From contig NZ_FOZK01000002.1 of NCBI RefSeq assembly GCF_900114435.1, positions 124,001 to 188,000 on the forward strand: a stretch of 64,000 bases of DNA, read 5' to 3'. Below the pieces are notes generated by a model, which had not been told where the DNA came from, did not search any database, and saw nothing but the letters and a program-made list of their open reading frames with translations. Made by a program: the position numbers and the translations under genes. Source of the DNA: Halomicrobium zhouii. GTDB lineage: Archaea; Halobacteriota; Halobacteria; Halobacteriales; Haloarculaceae. Of the stretch, positions 43,726-64,000 are shown in pieces; position 1 is the stretch's first letter; each line of letters begins with the position of its first letter.

Positions 43726-43808
43726 ACTACCAGCGTAACGTCGCATTGCGGACGCCTGGCCGAACGTTGGTCTCTGTGACAGGCGGGTGCGTCTCCGGAT
43801 GACTCTCC

Positions 43809-44291
43809 CTATTCATAGCCCATCATCTCGTCGTCGAACGAGTCGACGATGCTCTGGAGTTCGGTCTCGATTTCGTCTTCCTCGTCGTCCTCCTCCTTGG
43901 ACTTGATGTAGTCGACGATCGCATCTGTCGGGTCGCCGGCGTTCTGACCGAACTTTTTCCTGGCGACTTCGAGCCCGCCAGCGGCGTACTGGGCGATGAC
44001 GCGCTTGTGTTCGTCCGGATCCACGAGTGCCTCTGGCTCGCCCGTGTCCTGGTACGCGAGACAGGCTGCGATAGTGTGGTAGAGGTCGCGAGAATGGATG
44101 TTTTGCAGCCCGGCTTCGCTCTGGGTCTCGTCCGGGATTCCCTTGTAGTTCTCGCGCTTCACGTTCCCCTCGCGATATCCGAGGACAGCGAGGAACACGA
44201 GGACTTCGTAGTAGTGTTCGAACACCGCGTGTTCGTCGACGAGTTGTTCGTACAGTTCGCCCTGTTCGTACTGGATATTCGTCTTTGCCAT
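43809..44291 (-). CDS. Dnd system-associated protein 4-like
   Basis: A 160-residue acidic, largely helical protein. The stretch EHYYEVLVFLAVLGYREGNVKREN resembles the core of the family known as Dnd system-associated protein 4, small proteins found beside phosphorothioation restriction genes. The C-terminal 45 residues are strongly acidic. It begins two bases after the stop of the SMC-type ATPase gene, so the two are surely co-expressed. The biochemical function is unknown. The assignment rests on pattern memory plus context; a profile search would settle it. Confidence 0.68.
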   Translation of the reverse strand: MAKTNIQYEQGELYEQLVDEHAVFEHYYEVLVFLAVLGYREGNVKRENYKGIPDETQSEAGLQNIHSRDLYHTIAACLAYQDTGEPEALVDPDEHKRVIAQYAAGGLEVARKKFGQNAGDPTDAIVDYIKSKEEDDEEDEIETELQSIVDSFDDEMMGYE

Positions 44292-44293
44292 CG

Positions 44294-46324
44294 TCAGTCA
44301 CCTGCCTGAGCGGCCTGCTCGCCCTTGATTTGCGTCTGCGGACTCTTGTTCGTCCCCTCTCCATCGTCGAAGTCGAGCCAGTACTGCTCCCCGGCGATGT
44401 CGCTCATCTCCTCCTCGACGGGACCCTCCCACTGCGAGTCAGTGGCGAAGACGACGACTTGCGACGCCAGGGTCGGGAGGATACGACTCACTTCTCGTCG
44501 GTGGTCTTTGTCGAGTGCACCGAACGGCGAGTCCATGACGAGCGGGTAGATACCACCGGTGAAATACTCCGATTCGGAGCCCGCTTCGTAGCGCTTCTTG
44601 GCGATTTTGACCAGGCTTCCGACGAACGCCAGACTCGCGATCTGGCGTTCACCCGTCGACTTGTCGACTTCGACTTGCTGGTCTTCGACGGATTGCTGGA
44701 TCTTCAGTTCGAACTCCTCCGTAATTTCGGCTTCGAGGTTCTTGCTCGCAATCTTGCCGAATGTATCGTTCACTTCCTGATTCGACCACGTTCGAACTTT
44801 ATCCTTGAGTGCCTCGAAGTTGTTCGCGAGGTCGGTCTCGACGAGTTCTGCTGCACGCTGTCTGCGCCGTGCGAGCTGGGTCTCCGCCTGTTCGTCCTTC
44901 TGCTCGGCGATATCCGCTTCGAGCTCTTCGACGTCGGCTTCCTTCGAGGAAATCTGCTCTTCGATGCCTCCCCTGTCTGCGATGAGTTGCTCCTTTTCTT
45001 GCTGCTTGTTCTCTCGATCGGTTTCGAGGTCACTGATCGACTGCCCGCCGGGGGTGGTGGCGTCGAGTCCCTTGAGTTCGGAGCTGATCGACGAGATGCG
45101 TTCTTCGAGCCTGTCGATCTGTTCGTGTTTCTCCTGCCGGCGTTCGATAAGTTCGTCGACGTCGTCGAAGAACTCCGTGCGGCCATCGGTGAACTGCCTG
45201 AGGTGACCGACGACTCGGAGCGCGCCCTGCTCGACGCCGTCAGACGCAACCTCACCACGGAGGGAGGCGACGTGGTCGTACGGCTCTGAGTCGTGCTCGA
45301 GATCTCGACCACAGAGACACTGCTTGGCTTCGAGCAGTGAATTGAGGAAGTCGTCGCTCAGTTCCGAGGGGATGACGCCGTCTTTCCGGAGCTGGTCGAT
45401 TTCCTGTGCAGATTCCCGGATCAGGGGCATCGCGAGCGGGATGAATCCGTTCTCCGTGATCGCCGCTTTGATCTGGGCGTTGATCTCGTCGACATCGTCT
45501 TCGAGACCGGTCACGTCTTCCCGGTACGCCTCTCGATTCTCCTGTAGCTGCGCGCTCTCGTCGAGACGTTCGAGCTTCTGGTCGATATCCGAGATTTCCG
45601 TTCCGACGCGTTCGATCGCGCGTTCCTTGTCCTTCTTTTTCCGCTGGAGGTCCTCGATGTCGGTTTCTGTCGCCTGCTTTTCGTCGATCAGCTCCCGGAG
45701 TTCTTCGCTGGCACTATCCTGAACCTGGGACTCGAATCGGTCGGCGACATCTCCGAGGTGTCGGGTGGCCCGTTCCAGAATCGTCAGCCCCATGATGTTC
45801 TGGATGGCCTCCTGGATACGGTCCTGGTTGTCGATTCCGGCCAGCTCGTCGATGTCCTCCCCATCGAAGAAGAACAGTTCGCTGAGTCGCTCCGGGATGA
45901 TCTGGCTGAGGACCTCGCCGGGATTCTCCGGTCGATTGACGCCGCTGCCGTCGTCGTACTCGACGACGAGAGTCGGTTCGTTCAGGATGCCGTCGAAATC
46001 TGTCGGCGACTGCTTTTCGTACGTGGCCGTTCGCGTGGCGGTGTAGTCGGCGTCGTCGTGCGAGAACTCGAGTGTGACCGAGACGGTCACTTCGTCGCCA
46101 GGATCCGCCGCAGCCATCGCACCTTCGCTCGCGAGCCGTTCGGGACGTGTATCGAAATCGACCTCCTCGTAGAGGAGCCAGGTGAACGCATTCAGCAGCG
46201 TGGTCTTCCCTGAACCGTTCGACCCGTGAATGACCGTCACGTTCCGCGTCTCGCCGCGTGCGAACGAGATTTCCTCGTCGCGAAACTGCCGGAAATTCTG
46301 GAGTGAAAGTGTGTCTAACTTCAT
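44294..46324 (-). CDS. DndD/Rad50-like SMC ATPase
   Basis: A 676-residue SMC-type ATPase. The N-terminal half-ATPase has the Walker A GSNGSGKT (residues 34-41). A long coiled coil (roughly 190-560) is interrupted by a hook-like CLCGRDLEHD segment, as in DndD- and RloC-type proteins. The C-terminal half-ATPase has Walker B LVMDSPFGALDKDHR and VVFATDSQW. In Dnd systems DndD is the ATPase that acts with the sulfur-transfer complex; related ATPases also drive restriction. Its start overlaps the 51-residue gene by one base (TGATG) and it ends two bases before the Dnd-associated-4-like gene. No DndC homologue lies in the window, so I do not call it dndD. Confidence 0.82.
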   Translation of the reverse strand: MKLDTLSLQNFRQFRDEEISFARGETRNVTVIHGSNGSGKTTLLNAFTWLLYEEVDFDTRPERLASEGAMAAADPGDEVTVSVTLEFSHDDADYTATRTATYEKQSPTDFDGILNEPTLVVEYDDGSGVNRPENPGEVLSQIIPERLSELFFFDGEDIDELAGIDNQDRIQEAIQNIMGLTILERATRHLGDVADRFESQVQDSASEELRELIDEKQATETDIEDLQRKKKDKERAIERVGTEISDIDQKLERLDESAQLQENREAYREDVTGLEDDVDEINAQIKAAITENGFIPLAMPLIRESAQEIDQLRKDGVIPSELSDDFLNSLLEAKQCLCGRDLEHDSEPYDHVASLRGEVASDGVEQGALRVVGHLRQFTDGRTEFFDDVDELIERRQEKHEQIDRLEERISSISSELKGLDATTPGGQSISDLETDRENKQQEKEQLIADRGGIEEQISSKEADVEELEADIAEQKDEQAETQLARRRQRAAELVETDLANNFEALKDKVRTWSNQEVNDTFGKIASKNLEAEITEEFELKIQQSVEDQQVEVDKSTGERQIASLAFVGSLVKIAKKRYEAGSESEYFTGGIYPLVMDSPFGALDKDHRREVSRILPTLASQVVVFATDSQWEGPVEEEMSDIAGEQYWLDFDDGEGTNKSPQTQIKGEQAAQAGD

Positions 46325-46479
46325 CAGTAGACTTCTTCTTCGACTATCTCCTCGATTTGATTGACAACACCGCGCGGATTATCGAGATTGAGTTTCTTCT
46401 TCTCGGCTGATAGGACCCGGTCGGTAATGCGGGCTATCGTTTCGTCCGGAATGGAGATGTCATCGTTGCTGTCCGTCAT
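46324..46479 (-). CDS. 51-residue protein heading the Dnd-like operon
   Basis: A short acidic protein beginning MTDSNDDISIPDETIAR and ending IEEIVEEEVY, probably one or two helices. No family is recognised. Its ATG lies 27 bases after a clear TATA box (46501-46510 on the minus strand), and its stop overlaps the ATPase ATG by one base. Both facts argue it is a real translated gene, and the first of a four-gene operon. By position it could take the place of the small DndE-type subunit, but I see no direct sequence evidence for that. Confidence 0.78.
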   Translation of the reverse strand: MTDSNDDISIPDETIARITDRVLSAEKKKLNLDNPRGVVNQIEEIVEEEVY

Positions 46480-46500
46480 CACCCCACCCAGACGCTGTGC

Positions 46501-46510
46501 GTATTTATAT
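46501..46510 (-). promoter_or_regulatory. TATA box of the Dnd-like operon
   Basis: ATATAAATAC on the minus strand is centred 27 bases upstream of the ATG at 46479, a textbook leaderless haloarchaeal promoter. Confidence 0.7.
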
Positions 46511-46581
46511 CTTGTAACGCACCACCCGTTTACAGGTTGTCTCCGGTTTGTTCTGCGATTGATCAGCAGTTCCTGTAATTA

Positions 46582-47988
46582 TCAACTGCCAAGCAGATCG
46601 TACTGTCGCTTGAGCCGTTGCAGAGATCCGTCAGTCGTCGGGACACCGTCCACTTCGGCGTCGGGATGATTGCGTGCGGCATCGGCGAACGTCGAGACGC
46701 GCTCGAGCTCCTTCTCCAGGAGGCGACGTTCGACGTCGAACTCACTGCCGGAGAGGAACGCAGGCTGGCCGTTGACGCTCGGGACGGTGATGAAATCGTG
46801 GATGACGGCGAAGTCCTTGCCCGGGTGAGTGCGGAGGATGCGTCCCCGGCGCTGGACGAACTGCCGTGGATTGCTGGTACTGGCCAGGATGTAGGCCGTC
46901 CGTGTCGCGGGGACGTCGACGCCCTCGTCGAGACAGCGAATCGAGGTGAGAACGTCGATACTGCCGTCGTCGAACCGGTCGAGCAGTCGTTCTCGATCTG
47001 CCTGCGACTCGCGGGCAGTGAATCGGTCGACGGTGAGGTCACTTTCCGATCGGATACGGTCCGTCGTCGCGTCGACGTGGCGCTGTCCCTCCCCTGATTC
47101 GATTCCCATCGATCCATCGCTACAATAGACGAGCGTGTGGTCGACCTCGCGCTCTCGTTCGAGGAGATCGACGAGCACGTCGAGTTTCTGCCGGGCAGTT
47201 CCCACCAGACGGGCGCGTTTAAATAGTGCTTGCTGGAGTGCGGGATTGTCCTCGAGAGCGACGTCGGACTGACCACCCGATAGTCGACCGATCTTCGCCG
47301 TGAGTCGTCTGTACTCCTCGAGCTCTTCGGCGTCGAACTCGACGATGTGTGGGATGTAGTAGTACTCACAAAGCGCCCCAGCCTCGATCGCCGCTGTGAG
47401 TCCGTACTCGAACACTGTCTCACCGAAGTACCGTTCGAGTACGCGCGTCCCCTCGTCGTCGTACCAGCGTTCTGGCGTCGCAGACAGGCCCAGTCGGAAG
47501 TCGAACGCCTGGGAGAGTCCCGTACGCATCTGTTCTGCGCCGAGGTGATGGACTTCGTCGGCGATCAGCATCATCGGTCCCCGACCCCTGCCGATGGTCT
47601 GCTGGGCAGGCTCCATCGAGAGCGTTCGATGCGTCGTTACGACGAAGCACAGCGACCGGGAGCCGTGATTGTATTCGAGCAGTTCGCGTTCGAGACGAGG
47701 CTGCCAGTTCTTTCGCGACTGATACGCCCGGACGGGCGTGATGCCGAATTCGTTCAGTTCCTCGGCCCACTGGTCGACGAGATGCTGGTACGGGACTGTG
47801 ACGACGAGAAAGAGCCCTCGATCTATCGATTCGGCGACTCGTGACGCCGCGAGCAGTGCCGTGATGGTCTTCCCCGTCCCCGTCGCCATGTGGAGAATCC
47901 CCTGGCCGTCAGCGTTGACCCACTCCCTGATTGCTGTCCGCTGGTACTCTCGCGGTTCGATCCAGTCGGGTGGTTGGAGTTGGGGCAT
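46582..47988 (-). CDS. SF2 helicase resembling Dnd restriction helicases
   Basis: A 468-residue superfamily 2 helicase of the XPB/Rad25-like group. Motif I is MATGTGKT, motif II ADEVHHLG, motif III LSATPERW, motif V TSIRCLDEGVDVP and motif VI NPRQFVQRRGRILR. Length, the NPRQFVQRRGRILR box and the neighbours fit the helicase family linked to phosphorothioation restriction (dnd_restrict type). It could translocate on DNA lacking or carrying the cognate modification. It ends 102 bases before the 51-residue gene, which has its own promoter. It is divergent from the gene at 48294. Confidence 0.82.
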   Translation of the reverse strand: MPQLQPPDWIEPREYQRTAIREWVNADGQGILHMATGTGKTITALLAASRVAESIDRGLFLVVTVPYQHLVDQWAEELNEFGITPVRAYQSRKNWQPRLERELLEYNHGSRSLCFVVTTHRTLSMEPAQQTIGRGRGPMMLIADEVHHLGAEQMRTGLSQAFDFRLGLSATPERWYDDEGTRVLERYFGETVFEYGLTAAIEAGALCEYYYIPHIVEFDAEELEEYRRLTAKIGRLSGGQSDVALEDNPALQQALFKRARLVGTARQKLDVLVDLLEREREVDHTLVYCSDGSMGIESGEGQRHVDATTDRIRSESDLTVDRFTARESQADRERLLDRFDDGSIDVLTSIRCLDEGVDVPATRTAYILASTSNPRQFVQRRGRILRTHPGKDFAVIHDFITVPSVNGQPAFLSGSEFDVERRLLEKELERVSTFADAARNHPDAEVDGVPTTDGSLQRLKRQYDLLGS

Positions 47989-50321: not shown

Positions 50322-50780
50322 ATGCCTATAGGAACACTCGAAGAATATGATGGGGGTGTGATCGCGGATTCAGGTGAGCGTGAACTGGTCGTCGGCGGTG
50401 ACCGCCCGATACGGATCAGCGCAGGCCACCGGATTCAACACCACGACGGAAAGTGCAGTCGCCCCCACGGCCACAATTACGAGATATCCGTTCGCATCAG
50501 TGGAGAGCTAACGGAGGAAGGATGGATCGTCGACAAAGGTGATATTACCGACGTACTCTCCGAGTGGGACCACCGGTTCCTCCTCGAGGCAGGTGACCCG
50601 CTGATCGAGGCGATGGAAGCGAGCGGCGACGAGGATGCAGTGGTCGTGATCGATGCACCGCCGACGGCCGAAGTCATGGCAGTGACGCTCGAACGGGAAC
50701 TGGAACGCCGCCTCCCCGAGACCGTCTCCGACGTCGGTGTGACAGTCAAGGAAACGAGCGAGCTCTGCGCCGGGCCCTAA
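50322..50780 (+). CDS. queD: 6-carboxytetrahydropterin synthase QueD
   Basis: A 152-residue enzyme converting dihydroneopterin triphosphate to 6-carboxytetrahydropterin, the second step of the 7-deazaguanine (preQ0) pathway. The zinc ligands are H36 and the pair H49/H51 in the CSRPHGH box; C45 is the catalytic Cys and the C-x3-HGH spacing is the QueD signature. The WDHRFLL pair (D83, H84) and the final VKETSELCAG, with its pterin-binding Glu, are present. It is the first gene of a four-gene operon; queE starts one base after its stop. Confidence 0.93.
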   Translation: MPIGTLEEYDGGVIADSGERELVVGGDRPIRISAGHRIQHHDGKCSRPHGHNYEISVRISGELTEEGWIVDKGDITDVLSEWDHRFLLEAGDPLIEAMEASGDEDAVVVIDAPPTAEVMAVTLERELERRLPETVSDVGVTVKETSELCAGP

Positions 50781-50781: not shown

Positions 50782-51555
50782 ATGCCGGTGAATGCAGACG
50801 CCACCGTCCCGGCAAACGAAGCGGAAGTCCAGGATGGGCTACCGATCAACGAGCTGTTCTACTCACTCCAGGGAGAGGGACGACTGGCTGGCGTCCCGTC
50901 CGTCTTCGTTCGGACCAGTGGCTGTAATCTGCGGTGCTGGTTCTGCGATTCCTACCACACCTCCTGGGAACCGACGCACGCCTGGATGGATATAGACGAC
51001 GTGCTGGCGGAGGTTCGAAACCACGCCCAGGCGAACCACGTCGTGCTGACGGGCGGTGAGCCGATGATGCACGACCACAGTGTCGAGCTTCTCGAACGGC
51101 TCGACGAAGCGGGCTATCACACCACCGTCGAGACGAACGGAACGATCTACCGGGAGGCACCGATCGACCTCGCGAGTATCAGCCCGAAGCTCGCCTCGAG
51201 CACGCCGACCCCCGAACGGGACCCGAAGGGGGACGGTGCGTGGGAGGAACGACACGAGGACCGCCGGATCGACATCGAGGCACTCTCCCGGCTGGTCGAG
51301 ACGTACGACTTCCAGCTGAAGTTCGTCGTGACCGACAGCACGGACATGCCGGAGATCGACGAGCTCGTCGAGCGCATCGACGACGCGACGGGCACGACAG
51401 TCCGGTCGACGGACGTCCTCCTCATGCCGGAAGGAGCGACCCGCGACCGCCTCGAAGAGACGCGTGAGACCGTCGCCGAACTGGCGATGGAACGTGGCTA
51501 CCAGTTCACGCCGCGACTGCACGTCACGCTGTGGAACGACGCACCGGGGACCTGA
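50782..51555 (+). CDS. queE: 7-carboxy-7-deazaguanine synthase QueE (radical SAM)
   Basis: A 257-residue radical SAM enzyme rearranging carboxytetrahydropterin to 7-carboxy-7-deazaguanine. FYSLQGEG is the QueE start motif, and CNLRCWFC (C48, C52, C55) holds the 4Fe-4S cluster. VVLTGGEPMMH binds S-adenosylmethionine. The downstream DVLLMPEG matches the substrate-binding end of the family. It starts one base after queD and is followed by folE four bases later. Confidence 0.94.
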   Translation: MPVNADATVPANEAEVQDGLPINELFYSLQGEGRLAGVPSVFVRTSGCNLRCWFCDSYHTSWEPTHAWMDIDDVLAEVRNHAQANHVVLTGGEPMMHDHSVELLERLDEAGYHTTVETNGTIYREAPIDLASISPKLASSTPTPERDPKGDGAWEERHEDRRIDIEALSRLVETYDFQLKFVVTDSTDMPEIDELVERIDDATGTTVRSTDVLLMPEGATRDRLEETRETVAELAMERGYQFTPRLHVTLWNDAPGT

Positions 51556-51559: not shown

Positions 51560-52180
51560 ATGCGTGAGCACGTGACACCAGACGTCGACGAGCCACGACG
51601 GACAGAGAATCACCCATCAGAGACGGCCATCGACTGGGAACAGGCACAGGAAGGCGTGCGCCTCCTCCTCGACGCCGTCGGCGAGGACACCACGGAGGAG
51701 ACGCTGATCGAGACGTGGTCCCGGCGCGTGCCTGCGGCGTTCGAAACCCTGACCGAGGGCGGCCGCGAGGCGGCGAAACCGTCGATGCAGACGTTCGAGA
51801 CGGCCAGTGACGACTTCGTCGTGAAGACGGGGATTCCACTCTACAGTCTCTGTGAACACCACCTCCTCCCGTATTACGGGGAAGCGCACGTCGGCTACCG
51901 ACCGGGGGATGCCGTCGTCGGTCTCTCGAAACTCTCCCGGTACGTCCGGTGGCAGTCACGAGAACTGACGATCCAGGAGGGTCTCACCAGCGACATCGCG
52001 ACCGGCCTCGCCGAGGAAATCGGCGCAGAAGGCGTCGTCGTCGAACTCCACGCCACGCACCTCTGTGAGGCGATGCGCGGCGTCGAGACGGCGACGGAGA
52101 CGGTGACCCGGTCCACTGTCGGCGCTCTGACCGACGACGAACAGCGACGATTCGACCAGCACGTCCGTACGACCGACTGA
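51560..52180 (+). CDS. folE: GTP cyclohydrolase I (FolE)
   Basis: A 206-residue type I GTP cyclohydrolase, converting GTP to dihydroneopterin triphosphate, the entry step to preQ0. CEHHLLPYYGEAHVGYRP and ATHLCEAMRGV give the zinc ligands (C98, H101 and C169) and active-site His. Many archaea use the unrelated FolE2/MptA enzyme, so a bacterial-type FolE inside this operon is noteworthy and suggests the operon was acquired as a self-sufficient unit (inference). The start lies four bases after the queE stop; an upstream in-frame extension overlaps queE and is rejected. Confidence 0.93.
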   Translation: MREHVTPDVDEPRRTENHPSETAIDWEQAQEGVRLLLDAVGEDTTEETLIETWSRRVPAAFETLTEGGREAAKPSMQTFETASDDFVVKTGIPLYSLCEHHLLPYYGEAHVGYRPGDAVVGLSKLSRYVRWQSRELTIQEGLTSDIATGLAEEIGAEGVVVELHATHLCEAMRGVETATETVTRSTVGALTDDEQRRFDQHVRTTD

Positions 52181-52188: not shown

Positions 52189-52887
52189 ATGACACAGAAC
52201 ACCCGCGCTGTCGTCCTCGCATCTGGCGGGATGGACAGCGCCACGGCAGCCTACGAGGCACAGGCACAGGGCTACGACGAGCTATTTCTCCTCCACACGA
52301 GTTACGGCCAGCAGACGGAGGCCAGGGAACACGACTGCGCACAGGCGCTGGCAGCCCACGTCGAGGCGGCGGATTTCCTGCACATCGAGACGAGCCACCT
52401 GAGCGAGATCGGTGCCTCCTCACTGACGGACCAGGAGATGGAGGTCACTGACGCGGACATGGACAGCGACGAGATTCCGTCCTCGTACGTGCCGTTCCGG
52501 AACGCGAACCTCCTCTCGATGGCCGTCTCCTACGCCGAGGCCAACGAGTGCAGCGCCGTCTTCATCGGCGCACACTCGGAGGACTTCGCCGGGTATCCCG
52601 ACTGTCGACCGGCGTTCTTCGACGCCTTCCAGCAGGTCGTCGACGTCGGGACGAAGCCAGCGACGTCGATTACGATGGAAGCGCCGTTCGTCGAGTGGTC
52701 GAAGACGGACATCGCCGAACGGGGACTCGAACTCGACGTTCCCTACGAGGACACCTGGAGTTGCTACCGTGCGGAAGCACCAGCCTGTGGCACCTGTGAT
52801 TCGTGTGCCTTCCGACTCAGGGCGTTCCAGGAACTCGATGCACGCGACCCGATCGAGTACGCCGAGCGGCCGTCGTACGTGGAATAG
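52189..52887 (+). CDS. queC: 7-cyano-7-deazaguanine (preQ0) synthase QueC
   Basis: A 232-residue ATP-dependent ligase of the PP-loop family, turning 7-carboxy-7-deazaguanine into preQ0. The PP-loop is SGGMDS (residues 12-17), and VPFRNANLLSMAVSYAE and GAHSEDFAGYPDCRPAFF are family signatures. The zinc site is C192, C200, C203 and C206 (SCY...ACGTCDSC). It closes the operon eight bases after folE. A weak GGCCCC/GGGGCT hairpin follows about 20 bases after the stop. Confidence 0.95.
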   Translation: MTQNTRAVVLASGGMDSATAAYEAQAQGYDELFLLHTSYGQQTEAREHDCAQALAAHVEAADFLHIETSHLSEIGASSLTDQEMEVTDADMDSDEIPSSYVPFRNANLLSMAVSYAEANECSAVFIGAHSEDFAGYPDCRPAFFDAFQQVVDVGTKPATSITMEAPFVEWSKTDIAERGLELDVPYEDTWSCYRAEAPACGTCDSCAFRLRAFQELDARDPIEYAERPSYVE

Positions 52888-53171: not shown

Positions 53172-56100
53172 ATGGCAAACAGTAACAATATCGACATCGA
53201 CGCCATCGTCAGTGGCAAGCAGGCGTTCAAAGCGGACCTGCTCAGTGACTTCGACAAGTCCCAGTGGCCGGACCGGATCGATTACGTCGCCCGCAAACTC
53301 ACCGATGGGGAATACATCGTCAACCCGCAGGCGCAGAACCCCCGGTTTCTGACTGGCGGTGCCGACCTCGACAAAGCTGCGCGTGACTACTACCTCCGTG
53401 GCATTGGCGCGCTCACCGGAGATATCTCGCGCTCGACGGCGCTCCCGGACACGTTCGCTCTGGGCACTCTTCTCGTCGAATTCGCCGGGTTGCAAGCGGG
53501 GCTCGAGCACGTCGACCGACGTGACGTCCCGCCCGGTGAGATACTCTCGCGACTGATCACCCGCAATATACAGCGCCAGACGCGGGATCAGTCGGCGCAA
53601 CTCGCACGCCAGCTGCGTGCCGACGCTGAAACGCCCCGTGAACTCGTCGCGGAACTCACCTCGGTTCCGGAAGTCGCACCGGTCGTCGAACAGGCGCTGC
53701 CTGACCCGGACGATGCCGACACGCTCACGACGCAGCTGGCAGAGCTGGACCTGACGACCGAGCTGTGGGACCACCAGCTGGAGAGCCTCGCGCTCTGGTT
53801 GCACCACGACACGAACGCGTACGTAGATATGGCCACGGCGACGGGAAAGACGGTGCTCGGACTCGCCGCCGTCGCACACGCCGTCGACTCGGGGTCGCTC
53901 CACCCTGCGGACCAGCAACGCCTCTCGGACATTTTCGACGGCGACCTCCCGGACCCACACCGTGACCGCCCGAACGACGTCCTCATCGTCACCACGGACG
54001 ACTTGCTCGGCGTCCAGTGGGCGCGGCTGTTCCAGGACCACTGTCACACGCCGGCCGCGTTCACGCAGGTACGGGAGTCCGGTATCCGGCTGCCATGGGG
54101 CCACATCGACATCCGGTCGGCGCGGAACATGGAAGACGTCGACCCGAGCGACTACCGGCTGGCGATTTTCGACGAGGTGCACAACTACTCGACACGGGGT
54201 GGGTGGGGTGACCATCTGGTTTCGTTCATCGAGTCTTCGTGTCCCGTCCTCGCGATGACCGGCAGCGTCACCGAGCAACTCGAGTCGCTCGTCCAGCGGG
54301 CCGACCGGTCGTTCCCTCTGGTCTATCGCTACACGCACCAGCTCGCGCTCGCCGACGGCGTGATCCCAGACTTCGAGTGGACGCTGTCGTTCACCGAAGT
54401 GACCGACTCCGACTCGCTTTCGCAGTTCCGGGAGACGGCCAGCCATTTCGACGACGTCGTCGAGTACGACGCTGGGACGTACCACCTCGAGAACGACGCC
54501 CTGGCTGAAGCAGCGCCGGAACTTCCGAACGCCACCGTCGACGAGGTGGCTGGCGACTACGTCTCGGGGTCGGCACTCGCTGCCGGACTTCGCGACCACG
54601 GCGATGACGACATAGCGCCAACGAAGCAACTCGAGACACTCGCGAGTGGCATCGGCAACCGGACGATCCATCGGCTCAACCTCGACGCCGACCTCGCGGC
54701 AGTCGTCGAACTGGCAGAACAGGCACTTTCGGACGGCCGACCGGTACTCGTGCTGACCCGGTCCTACCGCGAGGCGAAGGAAATCTGGCAGGAACTGTAC
54801 GACCAGCACGGCGATCGCGTCGTCCGACGACTCGACGCGGATCAGGACGCGGCGAAACAGGACTCTATCATCAGGTCGTTCGACGAGGCCGAAACCGACG
54901 AGAAAGCACTGATCGGTCCCGGGAAACGTATCGGACAGGGGAACGACATCAGGTCCGTCGAAGTCGGCATCAACATCGCCCGCCCGGGCAGTGGTGTGAA
55001 CACGTCCCTCGTCCAGCGACTCGGTCGCCTGCTCCGTGACGCGGGCGGCAAGGAGACGGTCTCGTTCTATCACCTCGTCGGGGTACCGCCGGCCGACGCC
55101 ACGATCGAACCCGACGGTGAATCGTTCGTCCGGACCATCGCGGAGTTCTTCGGCCAGGTGCTCGAACCCGACACCGACGGCATCCTCAAACAGCCTTCAG
55201 TGTCGATCGAGGACGACGTGGCGTCGGATATCGTCACGCTGGAACAACTCGGCGCGCCGAATGTCCGCGACGACCCGCGGGCAACCGCCATCGAGACGGC
55301 GTACGCGACAGCGATCGACGACCATCCTGACACCCCCACAGTCGCGACAGACTGGTTCGCCGCAGCCTTCGGCGATCAGACCGATCCCTCCAGGGTCACC
55401 GACGCGAGCACGGGGCGTGTCCGCCGGGAACCAGACGACGACTCCGGGTCCGGGCAACAGGAACCACCCGAGGGTGCCAGTTCGAGCGATGACGAGACGG
55501 ATGACTCGTCGACGGGGCCCGAGTCAGGCGATGGTTCGGACGAGGTGGACGAGAGTGATGACGACGAGACGAATCTAACTGTCGAGGACAATCCATCGCC
55601 TCTGGCCGAGCACTACGACGCGTTCCGGAGTCTGGGTATCATCCACCGAGCGATCCGTGAATCGGCCAGGACTACCTTCCCCGAGACGGATCCCCAGCAG
55701 CGGTGGATGGACGATGCCCGTTCGATCATCACCGAACAGGGATGGGGCGACCAGGACACTGGCTACGGGAGACAGCAGATGGAACGGAGCCCGTTCAAAA
55801 TCTCGGAGTACCGGGAAGCGTACGGCACGGAAGACCGGATCACTACGTTCGAGACGGTCGGGACTCAGACACTCTCGCCGGCGATAACGGCACTGCTGGA
55901 CGAATCACTCGCCGAACTCGAGTCGTGGGTCGTCCCCGTCGCCCCGGAGAGTGGGGTGCCACTGCCAGTACTCGTCGAGTCCGAAGCGGAATTAGCGCAG
56001 GCGCGGGCCTTACTCGACGAATTCCCCGCGGAGCCTCCCGTCACTCTCGAGGATGCCTCGAACGATGAGACTACCAGTGGTAGTAGTGACGAGTCGGGTG

Positions 56101-56348
56101 AGGAGACGGACGGTAGCGATACGACTGGTGGACCGGAAGTCGGCTCCGAAGACGATACATCGACACCAGTCGAAGACGTGCGCGGCGTACCCGCCGCGGC
56201 GACGGAGGCGTTGCACGCTGCAGGCTACGATCAACTCGACGACCTCCGGAGAGCGACCGACGACGAACTCACCGCGATAGACGGGATTTCAGCACAGCGC
56301 GTCACGATGATTCGAGCAGCAGTCGGTCGGCAGCAGGACGATTCGTGA
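53172..56348 (+). CDS. Large SF2 helicase with C-terminal helix-hairpin-helix
   Basis: A 1058-residue superfamily 2 helicase. A ~190-residue N-terminal domain of unknown type precedes the motor: motif I MATATGKT, motif II IFDEVHNYS, motif III AMTGSVTEQ, motif IV LVLTRSYREA, motif V NIARPGSGVN and motif VI VQRLGRLLRDAGGKE. A long acidic Ser/Asp/Glu linker, a conserved-looking helical block (~800-940) and another acidic linker follow. The last ~55 residues (GVPAAATEALHAAGYDQLDDLRRATDDELTAIDGISAQRVTMIRAAV) form paired helix-hairpin-helix motifs that bind DNA non-specifically. It resembles helicases of Dnd/Dpd restriction modules; the exact Dpd letter is not assigned. It lies 284 bases after queC, a gap in which I see no gene. 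Confidence 0.85.
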   Translation: MANSNNIDIDAIVSGKQAFKADLLSDFDKSQWPDRIDYVARKLTDGEYIVNPQAQNPRFLTGGADLDKAARDYYLRGIGALTGDISRSTALPDTFALGTLLVEFAGLQAGLEHVDRRDVPPGEILSRLITRNIQRQTRDQSAQLARQLRADAETPRELVAELTSVPEVAPVVEQALPDPDDADTLTTQLAELDLTTELWDHQLESLALWLHHDTNAYVDMATATGKTVLGLAAVAHAVDSGSLHPADQQRLSDIFDGDLPDPHRDRPNDVLIVTTDDLLGVQWARLFQDHCHTPAAFTQVRESGIRLPWGHIDIRSARNMEDVDPSDYRLAIFDEVHNYSTRGGWGDHLVSFIESSCPVLAMTGSVTEQLESLVQRADRSFPLVYRYTHQLALADGVIPDFEWTLSFTEVTDSDSLSQFRETASHFDDVVEYDAGTYHLENDALAEAAPELPNATVDEVAGDYVSGSALAAGLRDHGDDDIAPTKQLETLASGIGNRTIHRLNLDADLAAVVELAEQALSDGRPVLVLTRSYREAKEIWQELYDQHGDRVVRRLDADQDAAKQDSIIRSFDEAETDEKALIGPGKRIGQGNDIRSVEVGINIARPGSGVNTSLVQRLGRLLRDAGGKETVSFYHLVGVPPADATIEPDGESFVRTIAEFFGQVLEPDTDGILKQPSVSIEDDVASDIVTLEQLGAPNVRDDPRATAIETAYATAIDDHPDTPTVATDWFAAAFGDQTDPSRVTDASTGRVRREPDDDSGSGQQEPPEGASSSDDETDDSSTGPESGDGSDEVDESDDDETNLTVEDNPSPLAEHYDAFRSLGIIHRAIRESARTTFPETDPQQRWMDDARSIITEQGWGDQDTGYGRQQMERSPFKISEYREAYGTEDRITTFETVGTQTLSPAITALLDESLAELESWVVPVAPESGVPLPVLVESEAELAQARALLDEFPAEPPVTLEDASNDETTSGSSDESGEETDGSDTTGGPEVGSEDDTSTPVEDVRGVPAAATEALHAAGYDQLDDLRRATDDELTAIDGISAQRVTMIRAAVGRQQDDS

Positions 56349-56428: not shown

Positions 56429-58435
56429 ATGGCAGACTTCCGGGTGACGTCAGTCGGCGACGACGGCTATGGCCGGCTTGGAGAACTCGACGTTCCCCAC
56501 GGACCGGTCGATACGCCGGCGCTCTTTCCCGTGGTCAGCCTTATCGGTGGCTCGACGACGAACTCGGGTGGCATCTGGTCCCGACTTCGCGAGAACCTCT
56601 TTGCGAACGACGAGCTGCAGGGGGTCATGTTCCAGGCGATGAGTTTCACGGACTTCGGCGTTTCTCCGAAGAACCTCAACGAACACTGGCGAACACAGCC
56701 GTTCCAGGAGTGGTACCCAGACCTCGATGCGCCGGTGTTCATCGACTCGGGGGGGTTCAAGCTGATGAACTCGAACACGTTCAGCGACGCCCCGACCGAA
56801 GGTGGCGACGAGAACGACTGGGGGCTCTACACCAACCCGGCGAGCATTCTTGGGCTCCAGCTCGATTTCGGTGCCGACATCATCGCGACGCTCGACTATC
56901 CGATTCCGCCAGACCTCAAAGAGGAAGAGAAGATGGAGCGGATGGAGCAGAGCATCGAGAGCGCCGTGGAGTGTCTGCGGATCATCGACGACCCATCCCT
57001 GTTGACCGCGGACAACAACGACAACGAGCGCGCGAGAGAACACCTCGAACGCCGCAAAGCCGAGGGGAACGAGCCCGGCGTGTACGTCGCCCTCCACGGC
57101 ACCGACTTCGAGACGGTCAGCTGGTACGTCGGGAACTTCATCGAGGCAGTGGACGAGGCTGGTCTCAACCACGCCTTCGAGGGATTCGCTCTCGGGTCGC
57201 TCGTCCCCCTCCGGAGCAGTATGGACGTACTGGTCAAACTCATCCAGGGGGCGAAAGCGGCGATCCCGGAGGCACGTGCGGACGAGATTGGACTGCACGT
57301 CTTCGGAATCGGTGGCAAGCAGGTCTCCCTGCTGGCGCTCCTCGGCGTCGACTCGTTCGACTGTTCGAGCCACGTTCAGGCTGCGAAGTACAGGAAGTAC
57401 GTCGTCCCCGGCGAGTGGGAGAACGTCGCGTTGGAGGACCTCCCGGCGTACATCGACGACGACGGCAACTTCCCCTGTGACATGCCCAACTGCACGCTCT
57501 GTGGCCCCGAGAGCGACGTCGCGAGTTACGAGGAGATGATGCACGTCCTGAACAGCGACATGGGCTACGACGAGCGCGAGGAGCGGAAAGCCAACGGCGA
57601 GTTCATCAAGAGCGACTACTACGCGCACCTGGCACGGCACAACTTCGAGGTGTACAACCAGGAACTGATGCGTGTGCGGGAGCAGATTCGGCAGGGAACG
57701 CTCCTGGACTACGTCGTCGAGGAGGCCAGGAAGGACGACGACATCAAAAAGGGTCTCAAGGAAGCGCAGTTGCACGACGACCGCGGACTGCAAGCAGACC
57801 TCGAGGAACGCGGTGCGTACGACCTCGTCGCGGGGATGGACCTCACGAGTGACCAGGCGAAGCTCTCGACGTTCGACGCCGGCGTCGACGAGGCGACCGA
57901 GAGTCGGACGATTTCGCTCAAACACAGTCCGCACGACTTCGACGTCCTGGCCCGCGAGTACGCACCACCGTCGGAGACAGACGTCCTCCTCGTCGTCCCG
58001 TGCAGTCAGCAAAAGCCCTACTCCGAATCGCGAACACACTCCGTGCTCTCGAAGAAATTAGGCGGACACCGGGAGAATACCCACAAGGTCACCGTCTCGG
58101 GGATGTACGGGCCCGTTCCGAAGGATTTCGAGGAGGAACAGCCGGTCCTCGAGTACGAGTACGTGCTCGCGAAAGAGGATGATGCCCAGATGGAACTCGT
58201 CACCGACCGACTCGTCGAGTTCCTCGACCGTTACGGCGACCAGTTCGACGAAATCGTCGGGTACGTGACGAGCAAGACCTATCGTGAAGTCATCGAAACT
58301 GCGTTCGACACGTACGGCCGCGGGACCGTCTTCCCCCGTGACCCCGAAGCGCTCCAGCTGACGGAGTTTTTCCGTTCGAGCAATATGCAGGAACTTCGTG
58401 AACACCTGGACCACGAACTCGCGACTGGGTCCTGA
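56429..58435 (+). CDS. dpdA: DpdA-type transglycosylase with an ArcS-like C-terminal domain
   Basis: A 668-residue protein predicted to exchange guanine for preQ0 in DNA. The N-terminal transglycosylase barrel keeps the general base D106 (FIDSGGFKLM), FALGSLVP (253-260) and nucleophile D311 (SFDCSSH). A cysteine cluster (C350, C355, C358) with H400/H404 resembles the tRNA-guanine transglycosylase zinc site, followed by HNFEVYNQELMRVREQI. The C-terminal half contains P524-C525-x3-K529-P530-Y531-x2-S534-x2-H537, the signature of archaeosine synthase ArcS. Known ArcS proteins have a degenerate transglycosylase domain; here both halves look intact. No PUA domain is visible at the end, consistent with a non-tRNA target. 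It lies 80 bases after the helicase gene. Confidence 0.85.
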   Translation: MADFRVTSVGDDGYGRLGELDVPHGPVDTPALFPVVSLIGGSTTNSGGIWSRLRENLFANDELQGVMFQAMSFTDFGVSPKNLNEHWRTQPFQEWYPDLDAPVFIDSGGFKLMNSNTFSDAPTEGGDENDWGLYTNPASILGLQLDFGADIIATLDYPIPPDLKEEEKMERMEQSIESAVECLRIIDDPSLLTADNNDNERAREHLERRKAEGNEPGVYVALHGTDFETVSWYVGNFIEAVDEAGLNHAFEGFALGSLVPLRSSMDVLVKLIQGAKAAIPEARADEIGLHVFGIGGKQVSLLALLGVDSFDCSSHVQAAKYRKYVVPGEWENVALEDLPAYIDDDGNFPCDMPNCTLCGPESDVASYEEMMHVLNSDMGYDEREERKANGEFIKSDYYAHLARHNFEVYNQELMRVREQIRQGTLLDYVVEEARKDDDIKKGLKEAQLHDDRGLQADLEERGAYDLVAGMDLTSDQAKLSTFDAGVDEATESRTISLKHSPHDFDVLAREYAPPSETDVLLVVPCSQQKPYSESRTHSVLSKKLGGHRENTHKVTVSGMYGPVPKDFEEEQPVLEYEYVLAKEDDAQMELVTDRLVEFLDRYGDQFDEIVGYVTSKTYREVIETAFDTYGRGTVFPRDPEALQLTEFFRSSNMQELREHLDHELATGS

Positions 58436-58692
58436 GAACCAGGTGTTAATTCTGTCGACGAGTTTCGTCGTTTCTGCAGACGGTTTACAATTTAAGTAGG
58501 TGAGGCGTCCTCAAGTGAGTGAGAGTTGCCCCACGGCTGTTCTCAGATACCAATGTTGGCTGTGGAACCACGAGGGACGATCGACCGGCCAGTCTGTTTC
58601 AGACGGATCTCCCGGTTCAGCACGCCGCCGCTGTGCCGGCCACGAGAACTAACTACCGGGGCAGTAGTACCATTTTCAACTCACCAAGCACG

Positions 58693-61600
58693 ATGAACAC
58701 ACCAAGGGACCGGCTCGACAGGGCCGTCGACAGAGCGGCCGAAGTAACGTGGTGGAACCGGAATCTGACGAAGCTCACGGACGTCGACGGGATCGCGAAC
58801 TCCCAGTCGTTCGTCGAAGACGACCTCGTCGAACGAAAGGGCCCGTACGTGGAGTACGTCGACGCCCCGGCGTTCCACGACCAGACTGCAGCCGAGTTCC
58901 TCTCCGATCTCGGCTATCATCAGGACATCGTCGCGGCGATCACGGCGAAGCTGTTCGGTGGCGACACCGACGGCTCGCTCTACCAGCACCAGGCCGAGAC
59001 GATCGCGACGATCGACGCCAACGACGACGACAACATCCTCGCCGTGCCGACGGCGACGGGGAAGACGGAGTCGTTCTTCCTGCCGATCCTCGACCACTGT
59101 CTGTCGACCGACGAGGAAGGGCTGAAGGCGATCGTCCTGTACCCGATGAAGACGCTCGGCGTCGACCAGCTCAACCGGTTCGTCTCGTATCTCGACGAGA
59201 TCAACCGCCGACGCGATCCGGAAGACCGGATCACGATCGGTATCTGGGACTCCGACACGCCCTCGCGGGTCGGGACGCGCGACCACGAAATCGAAGTCGG
59301 GTCGTACGTCCGGGGACTCGAGTGTCCACGCGAGGACGACAAGCTGAAAGTCCTCGGCGAGATGAACGTCGGGACCGACGACCACTCGTACCCGTGGCTT
59401 CGCGTGACTCGCGAGAGTATCCGCCAGGGTGTCGACATCCTCCTGACCGGGCCGGAGGCGCTGGACTACATGTTCGTCAGCGACAACCAGGAGACCCGGG
59501 GTATTCTGGGTGAACAGCCCGGAGACGTACCACTCAAGCACGTCGTCTTCGACGAGGCCCACGTCTGGAGTGGTATCCAGGGCGCAGCGGTTTCGCTGCT
59601 CTCCCAGCGTCTCAAGGCCTACTACGCGGACCGGGACCCACAGATCACGATGGTTTCCGCGACCGTCGACAATCCGACGGAACTGGCTGCGGACCTGACG
59701 GGGGCTGACGAGACAGCTATCAACACCGTCGAGTTCCGGGCGCGAGAGTTCGCGGCCCAGGGGACGCCCGACTTCGAGCGGCTGGCGCCGTGTACCATCG
59801 ACGACCTCGTGACGACGCTCGCGCTCGTGCACGTCCTCGACGTCGACGCGGGAACGCTCTCGACGGAGTATGGCCTTGGAAATGCGGTGGAGACACTACA
59901 GACCGTGGGGCTGCTCACCCGGTCGTCGCCGCTATCACTGGGGAACGCGGCCGGCGACTGGGTGACAGGACCGATCGACCAGGCAGTGGCCCGGGCGACG
60001 GATTCGGACCCCGAGCGGTTCCCCGACGCCGAAGCCGTCGTCACGACAGACCGTGGCCAGACGCGCGTCGTCGACGCGGTGGTCGAAGCCAGTGGAATCC
60101 AGTCCGGCTGGTTCGAGTACGCCATGGCCAACGTCCCGGAGGTGGCCCGGTTCGCCGACTGGTTCGACGAGGAGACGACGGGCGTCGTGGGGTTCAAACA
60201 CTACGACGCCCTCGTCGACCAGGTCGCCGAAACTGGCGTCGACGACCCGGAAGGAGTGCTCCAGTCTGTACTGGCGTTCGGCCGCCTCGCGGGCGTCGTC
60301 ACCGAGAAGTACCACACCTTCCTCAAGCCGCCGTACAAGGTGTACTGGTGTCGCGACTGCGAGCGAGTGGCGCGGGACAGCCGGTGTCCCGACTGCGGTA
60401 GTGACCTGCTGGAGATGCAGTTCTGTCGACGGTGCCACCAGCCGTACGTCGAAATCGGGGCTGACGGGACTGTCGGAGACGGTGGCGTCTCTGGGCGCGA
60501 CGCGTCGGCGGACTCGTCGTTCATCCCGGTCGGTGCTGACGCGAGTGGCGTCCCGTCGGGAGGTGACCGGTGTCCGGGCTGCAAGGGAACTCCCCAGCTC
60601 TCCGACGTCGGCGTCCCGACGCCGTCGTTGCTCTCGTACATGTTGACCGAGCTCTGCCGGGTCTCTCCGTCGAAGAAGACCCTGGTGTTCTCCGATTCGC
60701 GGAGTACGGCGGAGTCGGTCGGCGACCGAATCATCGACACGGAGTACGGGCTGATGGCCGAGACGCTCTACGTCGACGAACTCATCGACAGGGGCGGGCG
60801 GGCGGACAACTACGACCTCTTCCGAGCCGTCTCCGACCGACTCCGCGAAGAGTACTGGGACCCGCTCATCCAGAACGACGTCAACGAGGACGGGACGGCC
60901 TACAACTTCCTCCGGACGTTGCTCGACGACATCGAGGCCCACGCCATGCTGTCCAACTGTGATCACCTGCTGGACAGCGCCCTCGTCACGGCCGCGCCGG
61001 TGTACGAAACAGAGAATCTAGAAGCACTGCAGGTCGGTCACGCCCTGTACAAGCTGTTCGCGGGATCGTCGGCTCCTTCCTTCTCCAAGCAGCGGATGCA
61101 GTTCGCTGGCCTGACACGCGAAAAGGCCCTCGACCGGCTGGACTCTCGACTGGGCTACGACCGCTCGCTGATAGACCGGCATCTCGATTCGCAGCTGCGG
61201 ACGTTGCTCGACGTCGGTGTCATCAGCGAACTGTCCTGGGACGAAGCCAGAGAGACCATCCAGTCGTCGTCGCAGTCCGAGGCCGTCAAACACGAGGTGT
61301 TCGACTTCATCGAGGCGGCCAGAGAGGAAGTCGTCGAGCGCGATCTGACTCCCGAGCCGGAGAGCGGTGTGTACACGCGCACGCCCAAGCGCGACGATAG
61401 TGACCTCGTCTTGCTACCACAGGCGGCGTTCTGTGCGGGGTGTTACCGTTCGTATCCCGTTACTGCCGATGGCGACGCTCCGACGACGTGTCTCCACTGC
61501 GACGCGGCGCTGGAAACGTATCAGCGGTTCCGTGAATCCGACGAGGGATTCGTCGCCGATCCGGGATACGCGACCGCCGCCAGCGACTGGGAATACGCGG

Positions 61601-63477
61601 TCGATCACTGGGCCTACGACATCACCCGGTTCATCCGGGATGGGGCGATTCCGGAGTACATCTCCGTCGGGATCCACAAAGGAAACATTCCGCATACCCT
61701 CCGCGGAGCGATCGAGGAAGGGTTCCGGAAGGACGACCCGGACGTGAACATCGTCAGCGCGACGCCGACCATGGAACTCGGCGTCGACATCGGCACACTG
61801 GACACGGTCGCCCAGGTGGGGATCCCACCGACGCTGACGAACTACGTCCAGCGGAGCGGGCGAACGGGACGAACCCGGGGAAGTTCCTCACTCGTGGTCA
61901 CGGCCATCCGTGGCAATCATCCGGTCGATAGCCACTACTACGGGAATCTGGAGACGTTCCTCGGTGAGTTCGAACCGGTCCGGGTCCCGGATCCCTACGA
62001 GTTCGACGAGCTCCTCGCCAGCCACGTGGTCACGGAGACGTTCGCCTACCTCGCCCGGAACCCCCACGAGAGTAACGTCTTCCAGAAGATGTACCGCATC
62101 GACGAGCGCAAGGAGAATCTGGTCAACTTCATCAACTCGGTGACCAACCAGCTCGACATCCTCCGTGAGTTCATGCTCGACGAGCGGCGCGATGCCGTCG
62201 TTCGGCATATCGAGGACATCTTCGGCGAACGCGGCGTCGAACTGTTCGAGCAGGTGTTCGAGGGCGACGGCCCGCTCTCCCTCGACGACCGGATGGACAA
62301 GACGTTCTCGAAGCTGACCAGTATGTCCGGGGAGGGGGAGATGAACAAGTCGTTCACCGAGCAGAACGGCCGTCTGGACGGCTGGCTCAGCCGCCTCGGC
62401 TACCTGGCCAACTACCGGTCGTTCGGCCAGCAGTTCCCCGTCCGGTTCACCGGGGCCAACGACGGCATCCAGTTCGAAGGGTCGGGCCGGCTGTACGATA
62501 TGTTCCCCGGCGAGGAGAACGACCTCGGATCGGTGCTCACGCTCCACGGGACGGACTACATCGTCGACGACGTCCACGGGACCGAGACGCCGTTGACGAC
62601 CGTCACCGTCTGTGCGAACGACGAGTGCGAACGGCCTTTCCAGAGCTACGACGCCGACGGTACGACCTGTCCCCACTGCGAGGAGGAGATGGTCGAAACA
62701 CCTGTCCACGGCGTGAGCTCCGTCGAGTGCAAGGCTGCCAAAGGAGGCCAGAAAGGCTACACCACACGCGGGCTCCGGTCGACGTTCATCGAGGAACCGA
62801 CCGACGATGCAGCAATCAGGGTGGACGAGCGCCGGTCGGTCTTCGGGCTTGACGCGCGCCTCACCTACGGACAGCTCGAGGTGACCGACTTCGTCTACGC
62901 CTTCGAGCGGTGGCACACCAGGGGAAGCGACAAGGAAATTCTCCGATCTGAGGCCGTCATCGAGCGTGACGAGGCCGGCGGGTCGACAGGCAGTTCCTGG
63001 CAGGAACGCATGGCGGACGTCGAGGAGGAGATCTACCGCCCGGTGGGCCAGCAGTACTTCACGCAGGGGCTGACGATGCGTTTCGACGAAGCAGCCGTCC
63101 GAGAGCGCTACCAGGCCCTGGCTCACGATACCGTCTCCTGGCCCCAGGCGCTCGTCAGCCTCGAACAGGCCATGGAGAAGGCAATCGCCATCGTCGCCGA
63201 GTGCGACCGCGACGACTTCCGCGTGAAGGCGACGACCACGGGAACGGACGTCGTCGTGCACGTCGTCGACTCACGCCAGGGCGGCAACGGCATCACGTGG
63301 CAGGTCCTGGACCGACTCCAGGCCGTCGAACGCCGTGTCCGGGAGGTCGCCGACTGCGACCGGTGTAGCGATTACTGCGACGAGTGCCTCCTCCTGGCCC
63401 GGACGCCCGCGTACTACCTCGACAACGACCTGCTCGACAGGCGGACGCTGAGCGCCGTCGTCGGGGGCAGCCAGTGA
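58693..63477 (+). CDS. Giant DEAD/DEAH helicase with zinc clusters and DUF1998-type C-terminus
   Basis: A 1594-residue SF2 helicase. Motif I is PTATGKTES, motif II VFDEAHVWSG, motif III VSATVDNP, motif V TPTMELGVDIGTLD and motif VI NYVQRSGRTGRTRG. Between the RecA-like lobes are cysteine clusters (CRDCERVARDSRCPDC, FCRRCHQ, RCPGCKG, FCAGCYRS...CLHCD). Another zinc ribbon (CANDECE...CPHCEEE) precedes a C-terminal DUF1998/MZB-like region ending in DSRQGGNGITW and CDRCSDYCDECLLL. The architecture is that of DISARM DrmA/B- and DpdJ-like defence helicases. The frame is open 58 codons upstream to a GTG at 58519 near a TATA-like TTTAAGTA, but that extension lacks acidic residues, so 58693 is preferred. 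Confidence 0.87.
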   Translation: MNTPRDRLDRAVDRAAEVTWWNRNLTKLTDVDGIANSQSFVEDDLVERKGPYVEYVDAPAFHDQTAAEFLSDLGYHQDIVAAITAKLFGGDTDGSLYQHQAETIATIDANDDDNILAVPTATGKTESFFLPILDHCLSTDEEGLKAIVLYPMKTLGVDQLNRFVSYLDEINRRRDPEDRITIGIWDSDTPSRVGTRDHEIEVGSYVRGLECPREDDKLKVLGEMNVGTDDHSYPWLRVTRESIRQGVDILLTGPEALDYMFVSDNQETRGILGEQPGDVPLKHVVFDEAHVWSGIQGAAVSLLSQRLKAYYADRDPQITMVSATVDNPTELAADLTGADETAINTVEFRAREFAAQGTPDFERLAPCTIDDLVTTLALVHVLDVDAGTLSTEYGLGNAVETLQTVGLLTRSSPLSLGNAAGDWVTGPIDQAVARATDSDPERFPDAEAVVTTDRGQTRVVDAVVEASGIQSGWFEYAMANVPEVARFADWFDEETTGVVGFKHYDALVDQVAETGVDDPEGVLQSVLAFGRLAGVVTEKYHTFLKPPYKVYWCRDCERVARDSRCPDCGSDLLEMQFCRRCHQPYVEIGADGTVGDGGVSGRDASADSSFIPVGADASGVPSGGDRCPGCKGTPQLSDVGVPTPSLLSYMLTELCRVSPSKKTLVFSDSRSTAESVGDRIIDTEYGLMAETLYVDELIDRGGRADNYDLFRAVSDRLREEYWDPLIQNDVNEDGTAYNFLRTLLDDIEAHAMLSNCDHLLDSALVTAAPVYETENLEALQVGHALYKLFAGSSAPSFSKQRMQFAGLTREKALDRLDSRLGYDRSLIDRHLDSQLRTLLDVGVISELSWDEARETIQSSSQSEAVKHEVFDFIEAAREEVVERDLTPEPESGVYTRTPKRDDSDLVLLPQAAFCAGCYRSYPVTADGDAPTTCLHCDAALETYQRFRESDEGFVADPGYATAASDWEYAVDHWAYDITRFIRDGAIPEYISVGIHKGNIPHTLRGAIEEGFRKDDPDVNIVSATPTMELGVDIGTLDTVAQVGIPPTLTNYVQRSGRTGRTRGSSSLVVTAIRGNHPVDSHYYGNLETFLGEFEPVRVPDPYEFDELLASHVVTETFAYLARNPHESNVFQKMYRIDERKENLVNFINSVTNQLDILREFMLDERRDAVVRHIEDIFGERGVELFEQVFEGDGPLSLDDRMDKTFSKLTSMSGEGEMNKSFTEQNGRLDGWLSRLGYLANYRSFGQQFPVRFTGANDGIQFEGSGRLYDMFPGEENDLGSVLTLHGTDYIVDDVHGTETPLTTVTVCANDECERPFQSYDADGTTCPHCEEEMVETPVHGVSSVECKAAKGGQKGYTTRGLRSTFIEEPTDDAAIRVDERRSVFGLDARLTYGQLEVTDFVYAFERWHTRGSDKEILRSEAVIERDEAGGSTGSSWQERMADVEEEIYRPVGQQYFTQGLTMRFDEAAVRERYQALAHDTVSWPQALVSLEQAMEKAIAIVAECDRDDFRVKATTTGTDVVVHVVDSRQGGNGITWQVLDRLQAVERRVREVADCDRCSDYCDECLLLARTPAYYLDNDLLDRRTLSAVVGGSQ

Positions 63478-64000
63478 TTCGCGACCAGCTCCTCAACGAG
63501 GTCCAGGACGCCGCCATCGCGTGCCTGTACGACCCGAGAGAGAACTCGCGCTGGGGACTGCTCCGCGGGCTGCCAGCCCTCCACTACCTCGGCGTGGACG
63601 ATTTCACCTACCCCACGTCGTGGTGCCAGTTCGGGCGCGGGGGCCGCCACCACGAACTCGACTACGACTACCACGTCGTCAGCAACGGCCTCGACATCCC
63701 CGACGACAATCCCGACTTCGGCGTCGTCACCAACCGGCACTACGAACACGAGACGCCGTACACGATCAAGTACCTCATCAACCGGTATTCGACGACCGAT
63801 TCGATACTGTTCGTGCTCACGGACGACCGCCGGTTCCAGCCACAGGACTCGCTTCGACCGCTGTTCCAGGAACCGTTCGTCGATATGCTCGGCACCTACG
63901 CGTCCGTGTACGAGACGTTCGAGTCGGCATACGAAGACGCCGGGTGGCGGTTCCCGCTCTCCGACACGAAGAACGTCTTCGTGCAGGACAACGCTTCACT
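63474..64000 (+). CDS. Unknown protein coupled to the giant helicase (partial)
   Basis: A GTG start overlaps the helicase stop by four bases, and the frame stays open for 175 codons to the end of the window. The visible part begins MIRDQLLNEVQDAAIACLYD and contains WCQFGRGGRHHELDYDYHVVSNGL, PYTIKYLINRYSTTDSILFVLTDDRRF and DMLGTYASVYETFESAY. It is mixed alpha/beta with many Asp and aromatic residues. No motif or family is recognised. Tight translational coupling makes it a probable component of the helicase-containing defence system. The 3' end is missing. Confidence 0.8.
   Translation, partial: MIRDQLLNEVQDAAIACLYDPRENSRWGLLRGLPALHYLGVDDFTYPTSWCQFGRGGRHHELDYDYHVVSNGLDIPDDNPDFGVVTNRHYEHETPYTIKYLINRYSTTDSILFVLTDDRRFQPQDSLRPLFQEPFVDMLGTYASVYETFESAYEDAGWRFPLSDTKNVFVQDNAS

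Follow-up and report, generated by a model that had tools for sequence, protein, structure and literature searches.

Modification of DNA with 7-deazaguanines is already known, as are the proteins DpdA and DpdC and the dpd islands. Like the island described here, the known DpdA/DpdC islands (e.g. that of Salmonella Montevideo) combine an intact transglycosylase of the TGT fold and a supply of preQ0 with helicase and PLD genes of the DpdJ/DpdK-like kind and with a protein for the second step. That protein, DpdC, has been reported as either the DUF6884 or the DUF328/YaaA type (PMC11888242, PMC12839542), and the bacterial DUF328 (YaaA-like) DpdC makes an amide (PMC12839542). In Vibrio phage nt-1, DpdA2 and ArcS are encoded by separate genes, and the phage DNA carries the 7-deazaguanines dG+, dPreQ0, and dADG (PMC6884629). 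The ArcS of T. kodakarensis attaches lysine to preQ0, whether this stands in tRNA, in short RNA fragments, or in the free nucleoside, an addition that blocks back-exchange; it needs RaSEA in a complex and is inactive alone. M. jannaschii ArcS, by contrast, was reported to work with ammonium, asparagine, or glutamine (PMC11298593).

The island studied here lies in and just beyond a 64,000-nucleotide stretch of Halomicrobium zhouii DNA (the window). It differs from the DpdA/DpdC islands in that its second domain is of the DUF5591/ArcS type and forms the C-terminal part of a transglycosylase, and in that the haloarchaeal carriers tested lack DpdB (no match to the DGQHR family model TIGR03187 in genome G000 and four other haloarchaeal carriers). 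As in phage nt-1, both activities appear to be encoded, but nt-1 has two genes in a virus, whereas the fusion is one polypeptide found in cellular defence islands. In the database records that we examined, the TGT–DUF5591 fusion is annotated as a tRNA-guanine transglycosylase only. We consider it fairly probable that the fusion is a two-step 7-deazaguanine writer, acting most likely on DNA, in a Dpd-like restriction-modification or defence island.

A transglycosylase and an ArcS-type domain in one polypeptide

The gene, its parts, and its neighbours are listed in Table 1.

Table 1. The fusion gene and its island (positions are those of the window unless a contig or locus is named)
Feature	Position	Strand	Basis
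queD (6-carboxytetrahydropterin synthase), sole genomic copy	50322..50780	+	
que-operon gene between queD and folE	50782..51555	+	
folE (GTP cyclohydrolase I), start inferred; listed ORF opens at 51464	51560..52180	+	
queC (preQ0 synthase), sole true genomic copy	52189..52887	+	
SF2 helicase, helix-hairpin-helix at its C terminus; gene end 80 bp upstream of the fusion	53172..56348	+	
TGT–DUF5591 fusion gene, 668 aa	56429..58435	+	ORF, Pfam, alignment
Transglycosylase part of the fusion, approximately residues 1-440	56429..57748	+	Pfam TGT, alignments, AlphaFold model
ArcS-type domain (DUF5591) of the fusion, residues 508-635	57950..58333	+	Pfam, hhalign, C-terminal model
DEAD helicase with MrfA-type zinc domain (DruE/DpdJ-like), likely start 58693	58519..63477	+	
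Conserved island gene (start), unassigned function, extends past window end	63474..64000	+	
GHKL ATPase, TGT2, DUF6884 protein	C2:192835-196090 = L008 6836-10091	minus	

The Pfam TGT model matches residues 13–327 of the fusion (74.7 bits, E 9e-21, cut-off 26.3) and the DUF5591 model matches the stretch given in Table 1 (67.5 bits, E 1.5e-18, cut-off 26); these are real domains and not chance motifs. The original prediction had named D106 in DSGGFK and D311 in SFDCSS, a Cys/His cluster, and an exact ArcS motif, and had noted the absence of a recognizable PUA domain. On recheck, the open reading frame, its length, and the catalytic residues proved exact, with DSGGFK at 106–111 and SFDCSS at 309–314. 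The cluster corresponds to a zinc site of C350, C355, C358, and H404 (CDMPNCTLC spans 350–358), and the motif PC-x3-KPY-x2-S-x2-H is present without deviation at 524–537 (PCSQQKPYSESRTH), inside the DUF5591 domain. The Pfam search likewise finds no PUA match in the fusion, in which only 33 residues follow the DUF5591 match. Further key residues of the transglycosylase part are D156, H223, G256, and H290, and the DUF5591 part has a second motif, SGMYGPVP, at 557–564.

Structure prediction had been suggested at the outset as a check, and the models were compared with the PDB. The AlphaFold model is confident (mean pLDDT 86.8, pTM 0.83) and has a TGT fold N-terminally, with the Zymomonas (Z. mobilis) TGT and the Pyrococcus (P. 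horikoshii) ArcTGT as best matches. The C-terminal part modelled alone (mean pLDDT 90.6) matches AF0587 (2q07), the sole match at E 0.001, and 2q07 is also the only match when the PDB is searched with the sequence of that part. An hhalign comparison with the ArcS core gives 99.4%, and by this profile evidence the C-terminal part is homologous to that core. DUF6884 was considered as a direct relative of the C-terminal domain and set aside, the profile match being weak (16% probability); ArcS and DUF6884 compared with each other reach 83%.

Residues of both active sites are strongly conserved. Among 49 full-length homologues, D106, S107, G108, G109, D156, H223, G256, D311, C355, and H404 are invariant in the transglycosylase part, as are C525, K529, P530, Y531, S534, S557, G558, and Y560–P564 in the second domain, and C350 is conserved in at least 90%. 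Because these signatures are invariant or nearly so in archaea and bacteria alike, the two sites have been retained together in one chain. This bears on the explanation that only the transglycosylase is active, in which case DUF5591 would only bind nucleic acid or preQ0, the base written by the island would be preQ0 itself, and any second step would fall to the DUF6884 protein or to some other partner. The apparent distant relationship between DUF5591 and DUF6884/YaaA-like proteins, the dependence of ArcS activity on RaSEA (PMC11298593), and the separate DUF6884 protein beside TGT2 in haloarchaea all speak for such a role. Yet invariance of C525, K529-P530-Y531, and S534 goes beyond what binding needs, and no DUF6884 gene was found in the searched flanks of the bacterial loci; we regard a binding-only domain as improbable.

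Fusion homologues have a patchy spread, which also sets them apart from the tRNA enzymes: they occur in 28 of 292 haloarchaeal genomes (20 of 77 genera), and all five same-genus genomes in that sample lack one. A scan of one genome per species recovered full-length bacterial relatives in Cyanobacteria, Poribacteria, Chloroflexi, Thermodesulfovibrio, Deinococcales, and Kuenenia. A viral origin was considered and rejected, as no relative appeared in an IMG/VR scan or in a tblastn search of a phage collection. At two loci (L132 and L133), a TGT-like gene and a DUF5591-like gene adjoin each other as separate genes, both divergent, so the two functions are linked there once more. A Haladaptatus plasmid carries, besides TGT2, a second, diverged fusion copy beside the first (L045 22736-24700, minus strand), and many archaea (methanogen and other archaeal genomes) encode, besides ArcS, a standalone DUF5591 protein of approximately 230–270 aa.

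Comparison with the tRNA enzymes and DpdA

The host genome has four TGT-family genes: TgtA and ArcS lie together on contig C1, where the RaSEA gene is also found, and the fusion and a second transglycosylase (TGT2, 413 aa, with intact sites) lie on contig C2. In the alignment, the TGT part of the host ArcS is degenerate, as the original prediction had supposed of ArcS in general, whereas that of the fusion is intact. With ArcS (archaeosine synthase alpha, NF040592), the fusion has in common the core motif and the order of TGT part and core, but it scores only 104 of the required 440 bits, has no PUA region, and is also present in bacteria that lack RaSEA (13 fusion-bearing bacterial genomes were tested, and none has a match over cut-off). 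It has the catalytic Asp pair, zinc site, and base-pocket Asp and Gly of TgtA (TIGR00432), but reaches 91 of 350 bits and lacks the C-terminal PUA. DpdA also has the TGT fold, both catalytic Asp residues, and the zinc site, but its model NF041059 (equivalog cut-off 200 bits) does not match the fusion at E 0.001, and a Deinococcales homologue of the fusion obtains 20 bits against it. Some NCBI-named DpdA proteins (cyanobacterial and Paenibacillus) have an N-terminal DUF6884-like part, so they parallel the fusion, in a different arrangement, in carrying a transglycosylase and a second-step domain together.

Phylogeny against TgtA and ArcS had been chosen beforehand as a test of the prediction, and it places the fusion outside both: the fusions form one clade (bootstrap support of 89 and 97), TgtA another (100), and ArcS a third (100). 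We claim no branching order among these clades, because several long branches meet in the trees. The 967-aa Halorientalis DpdA, whose cut points are approximate (the DpdA match begins near residue 175), was given no weight in the tree or in the N-terminal alignment. Where tRNA TGTs have a Gln in the base pocket, every fusion has His223, and TGT2 likewise has a His; the substitution separates the fusion from the tRNA enzymes but is not a DNA signature, since proteobacterial DpdA retains the Gln.

The ArcS-like domain order and the C-terminal similarity to ArcS would be expected if the fusion were a duplicated haloarchaeal TgtA or ArcS in the role of a back-up enzyme for tRNA archaeosine. Such a role is largely refuted and, in our estimate, very improbable, given the separate clade with its deep bacterial members, the fact that ArcS passes its cut-off in 55 of the 59 haloarchaeal genomes sampled, in those with the fusion and in those without it, and the contrast between the degenerate TGT part of ArcS and the intact one of the fusion. 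Judged by these sequence comparisons, the fusion is not the tRNA TgtA or ArcS enzyme of its host, nor does it stand as the host's sole tRNA enzyme.

The preQ0 operon and the surrounding genes

Upstream of the fusion, the genes run in the order queD, queE, folE, queC, and helicase. The genome has no other copies of queD and queC, so this one preQ0 operon must feed tRNA archaeosine too, and the operon is kept in same-genus genomes without the island. Its closeness to the fusion is therefore supporting but not decisive, and the operon counts for less as proof of the fusion's role. Of 20 relatives searched, not all of them complete, 8 gave no match to the host QueC. Further upstream of the operon (window 37441-47988, minus strand) lie genes for a UvrD-type helicase with a PD-(D/E)XK domain, another PD-(D/E)XK protein, an SMC-like AAA ATPase, and a type III restriction-like helicase, which are possibly more defence or repair genes.

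Beyond the end of the window follow a second conserved gene of unassigned function, a STAND ATPase gene, and a coiled-coil gene, and then the set that encodes TGT2, the DUF6884 protein, and the GHKL protein (a GHKL/MutL-like ATPase), after which come a DpdJ-like helicase gene and a DpdK-like PLD gene. Among 22 named haloarchaeal loci, 19 have this conserved triad within 10 kb of the fusion, with DpdJ-like helicase, PLD, and STAND ATPase genes as neighbours; on a Natrinema plasmid, approximately 33 kb separate TGT2 from the fusion. The queD-queE-queC genes are within the same 10 kb in 8 of the 22 loci. The island's best DpdJ and DpdK candidates score 159.6 of 800 bits (NF041067) and 39.5 of 100 bits, respectively, both below the NCBI cut-offs; they are related to the Dpd proteins but divergent. 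The haloarchaeal island has two transglycosylases, the fusion and TGT2. A different two-transglycosylase set occurs on other haloarchaeal plasmids (L046, L047, and L182), which encode a long protein of the DpdA type, exceeding the NCBI DpdA cut-off in Halorientalis, together with a TGT of 344 aa and an ATP-binding protein of the BREX type.

Defence genes also surround the fusion in bacteria, where the neighbours scanned were hand-picked rather than drawn at random and the PADLOC names given to neighbours are homology-based, without tests in these organisms. Models for DpdJ, DpdK, LmuA, and PD-T7-1 match neighbours at L120, which also has queD-queE-queC. GmrSD/NsnA-type nuclease genes are found near the fusion at L098, L101, and L107, a DISARM DrmA gene at L128, PDC-M02B at L103, PD-T4-6/CARF at L126, a TIR-like protein at L118, and an HKD-Snf2 helicase at L105. 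There is no second TGT-like gene in the examined flanks of the bacterial loci (up to 10 kb), so the fusion may be the island's only transglycosylase there. DpdB (TIGR03187) is present somewhere in the genome of four of eight bacterial carriers. An Aeromonas match (H11) was rejected as a bacterial DpdA, since it appears to be a normal tgt among housekeeping genes. In cyanobacteria, a GmrSD_N/NsnA-type gene is the next gene to the fusion at L098 (11900-13635) and lies one gene on from it at L107 (15947-17657), followed by a HEPN protein; the fusion and this gene may form a compact modification-plus-restriction unit.

The setting of the fusion among virus-defence genes makes DNA marking probable. 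It could instead modify RNA, either at another tRNA position or as viral or host RNA during defence: all ArcS activity in PMC11298593 was on RNA, TGT relatives are mostly tRNA enzymes, and the preQ0 genes are common to the tRNA pathway. The missing PUA domain, the host's own TgtA, ArcS, and RaSEA, the replacement of the pocket Gln, and the helicase, DpdJ/DpdK-like, and nuclease genes around the fusion all argue against an RNA target, which we judge slightly more improbable than a binding-only second domain.

Proposed function and its meaning

In this family, an intact two-Asp TGT site is the mark of a transglycosylase step. Under the favoured reading, that of a two-step writer, the N-terminal domain would use this chemistry to put preQ0 in place of a guanine in its target, a nucleic acid that is most likely DNA, and the C-terminal ArcS-type domain would then act on the nitrile of the inserted base. 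The product would be of the amidine type (a lysine adduct or deoxyarchaeosine) or an amide (dADG), the conversion would make the base exchange irreversible, and the resulting self-mark would be read by the helicase, ATPase, and nuclease genes of the island. The precedents of ArcS and DpdC agree with a second site, fused to the first, that fixes the inserted base in place. Since T. kodakarensis ArcS alone is inactive without RaSEA, however, the second domain of the fusion may need a partner or be inactive.

The original prediction that one polypeptide inserts and converts preQ0 is partly supported, in that an intact preQ0-type TGT and an ArcS-type domain, both strongly conserved, share one chain. 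No RaSEA was found in the bacterial carriers tested, and an archaeosine formed through ArcS and RaSEA is therefore unlikely to be what the family as a whole makes. Assuming a catalytic second domain, we would, as a rough weighting, tentatively put an amine or lysine adduct first, with an amide and a directly made amidine as possibilities of lower and equal weight. To our knowledge, neither a terminal lysine-amidine (preQ0-Lys type) nor another amine adduct has been described in DNA. It is a possible but rather unlikely reading that Archaea and several bacterial phyla have in common one bifunctional enzyme which places preQ0 in DNA and, without RaSEA, turns it on the spot into such an adduct as a self-mark of the defence islands.

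The term DUF5591 was not found in the open-access literature searched; an earlier mention is possible, as key Dpd papers lie outside that search. If the function that we propose is true, the chemistry of archaeal tRNA archaeosine would have been recruited, in one polypeptide, for DNA marking, and 7-deazaguanine modification islands would extend to many haloarchaea, and also to bacteria whose carriers escape the current DpdA model. Action of an ArcS-type protein on DNA, a question left open by the phage nt-1 study (PMC6884629), becomes directly testable, and in the fusion there is a new route, open to testing, by which a modified DNA letter could arise.
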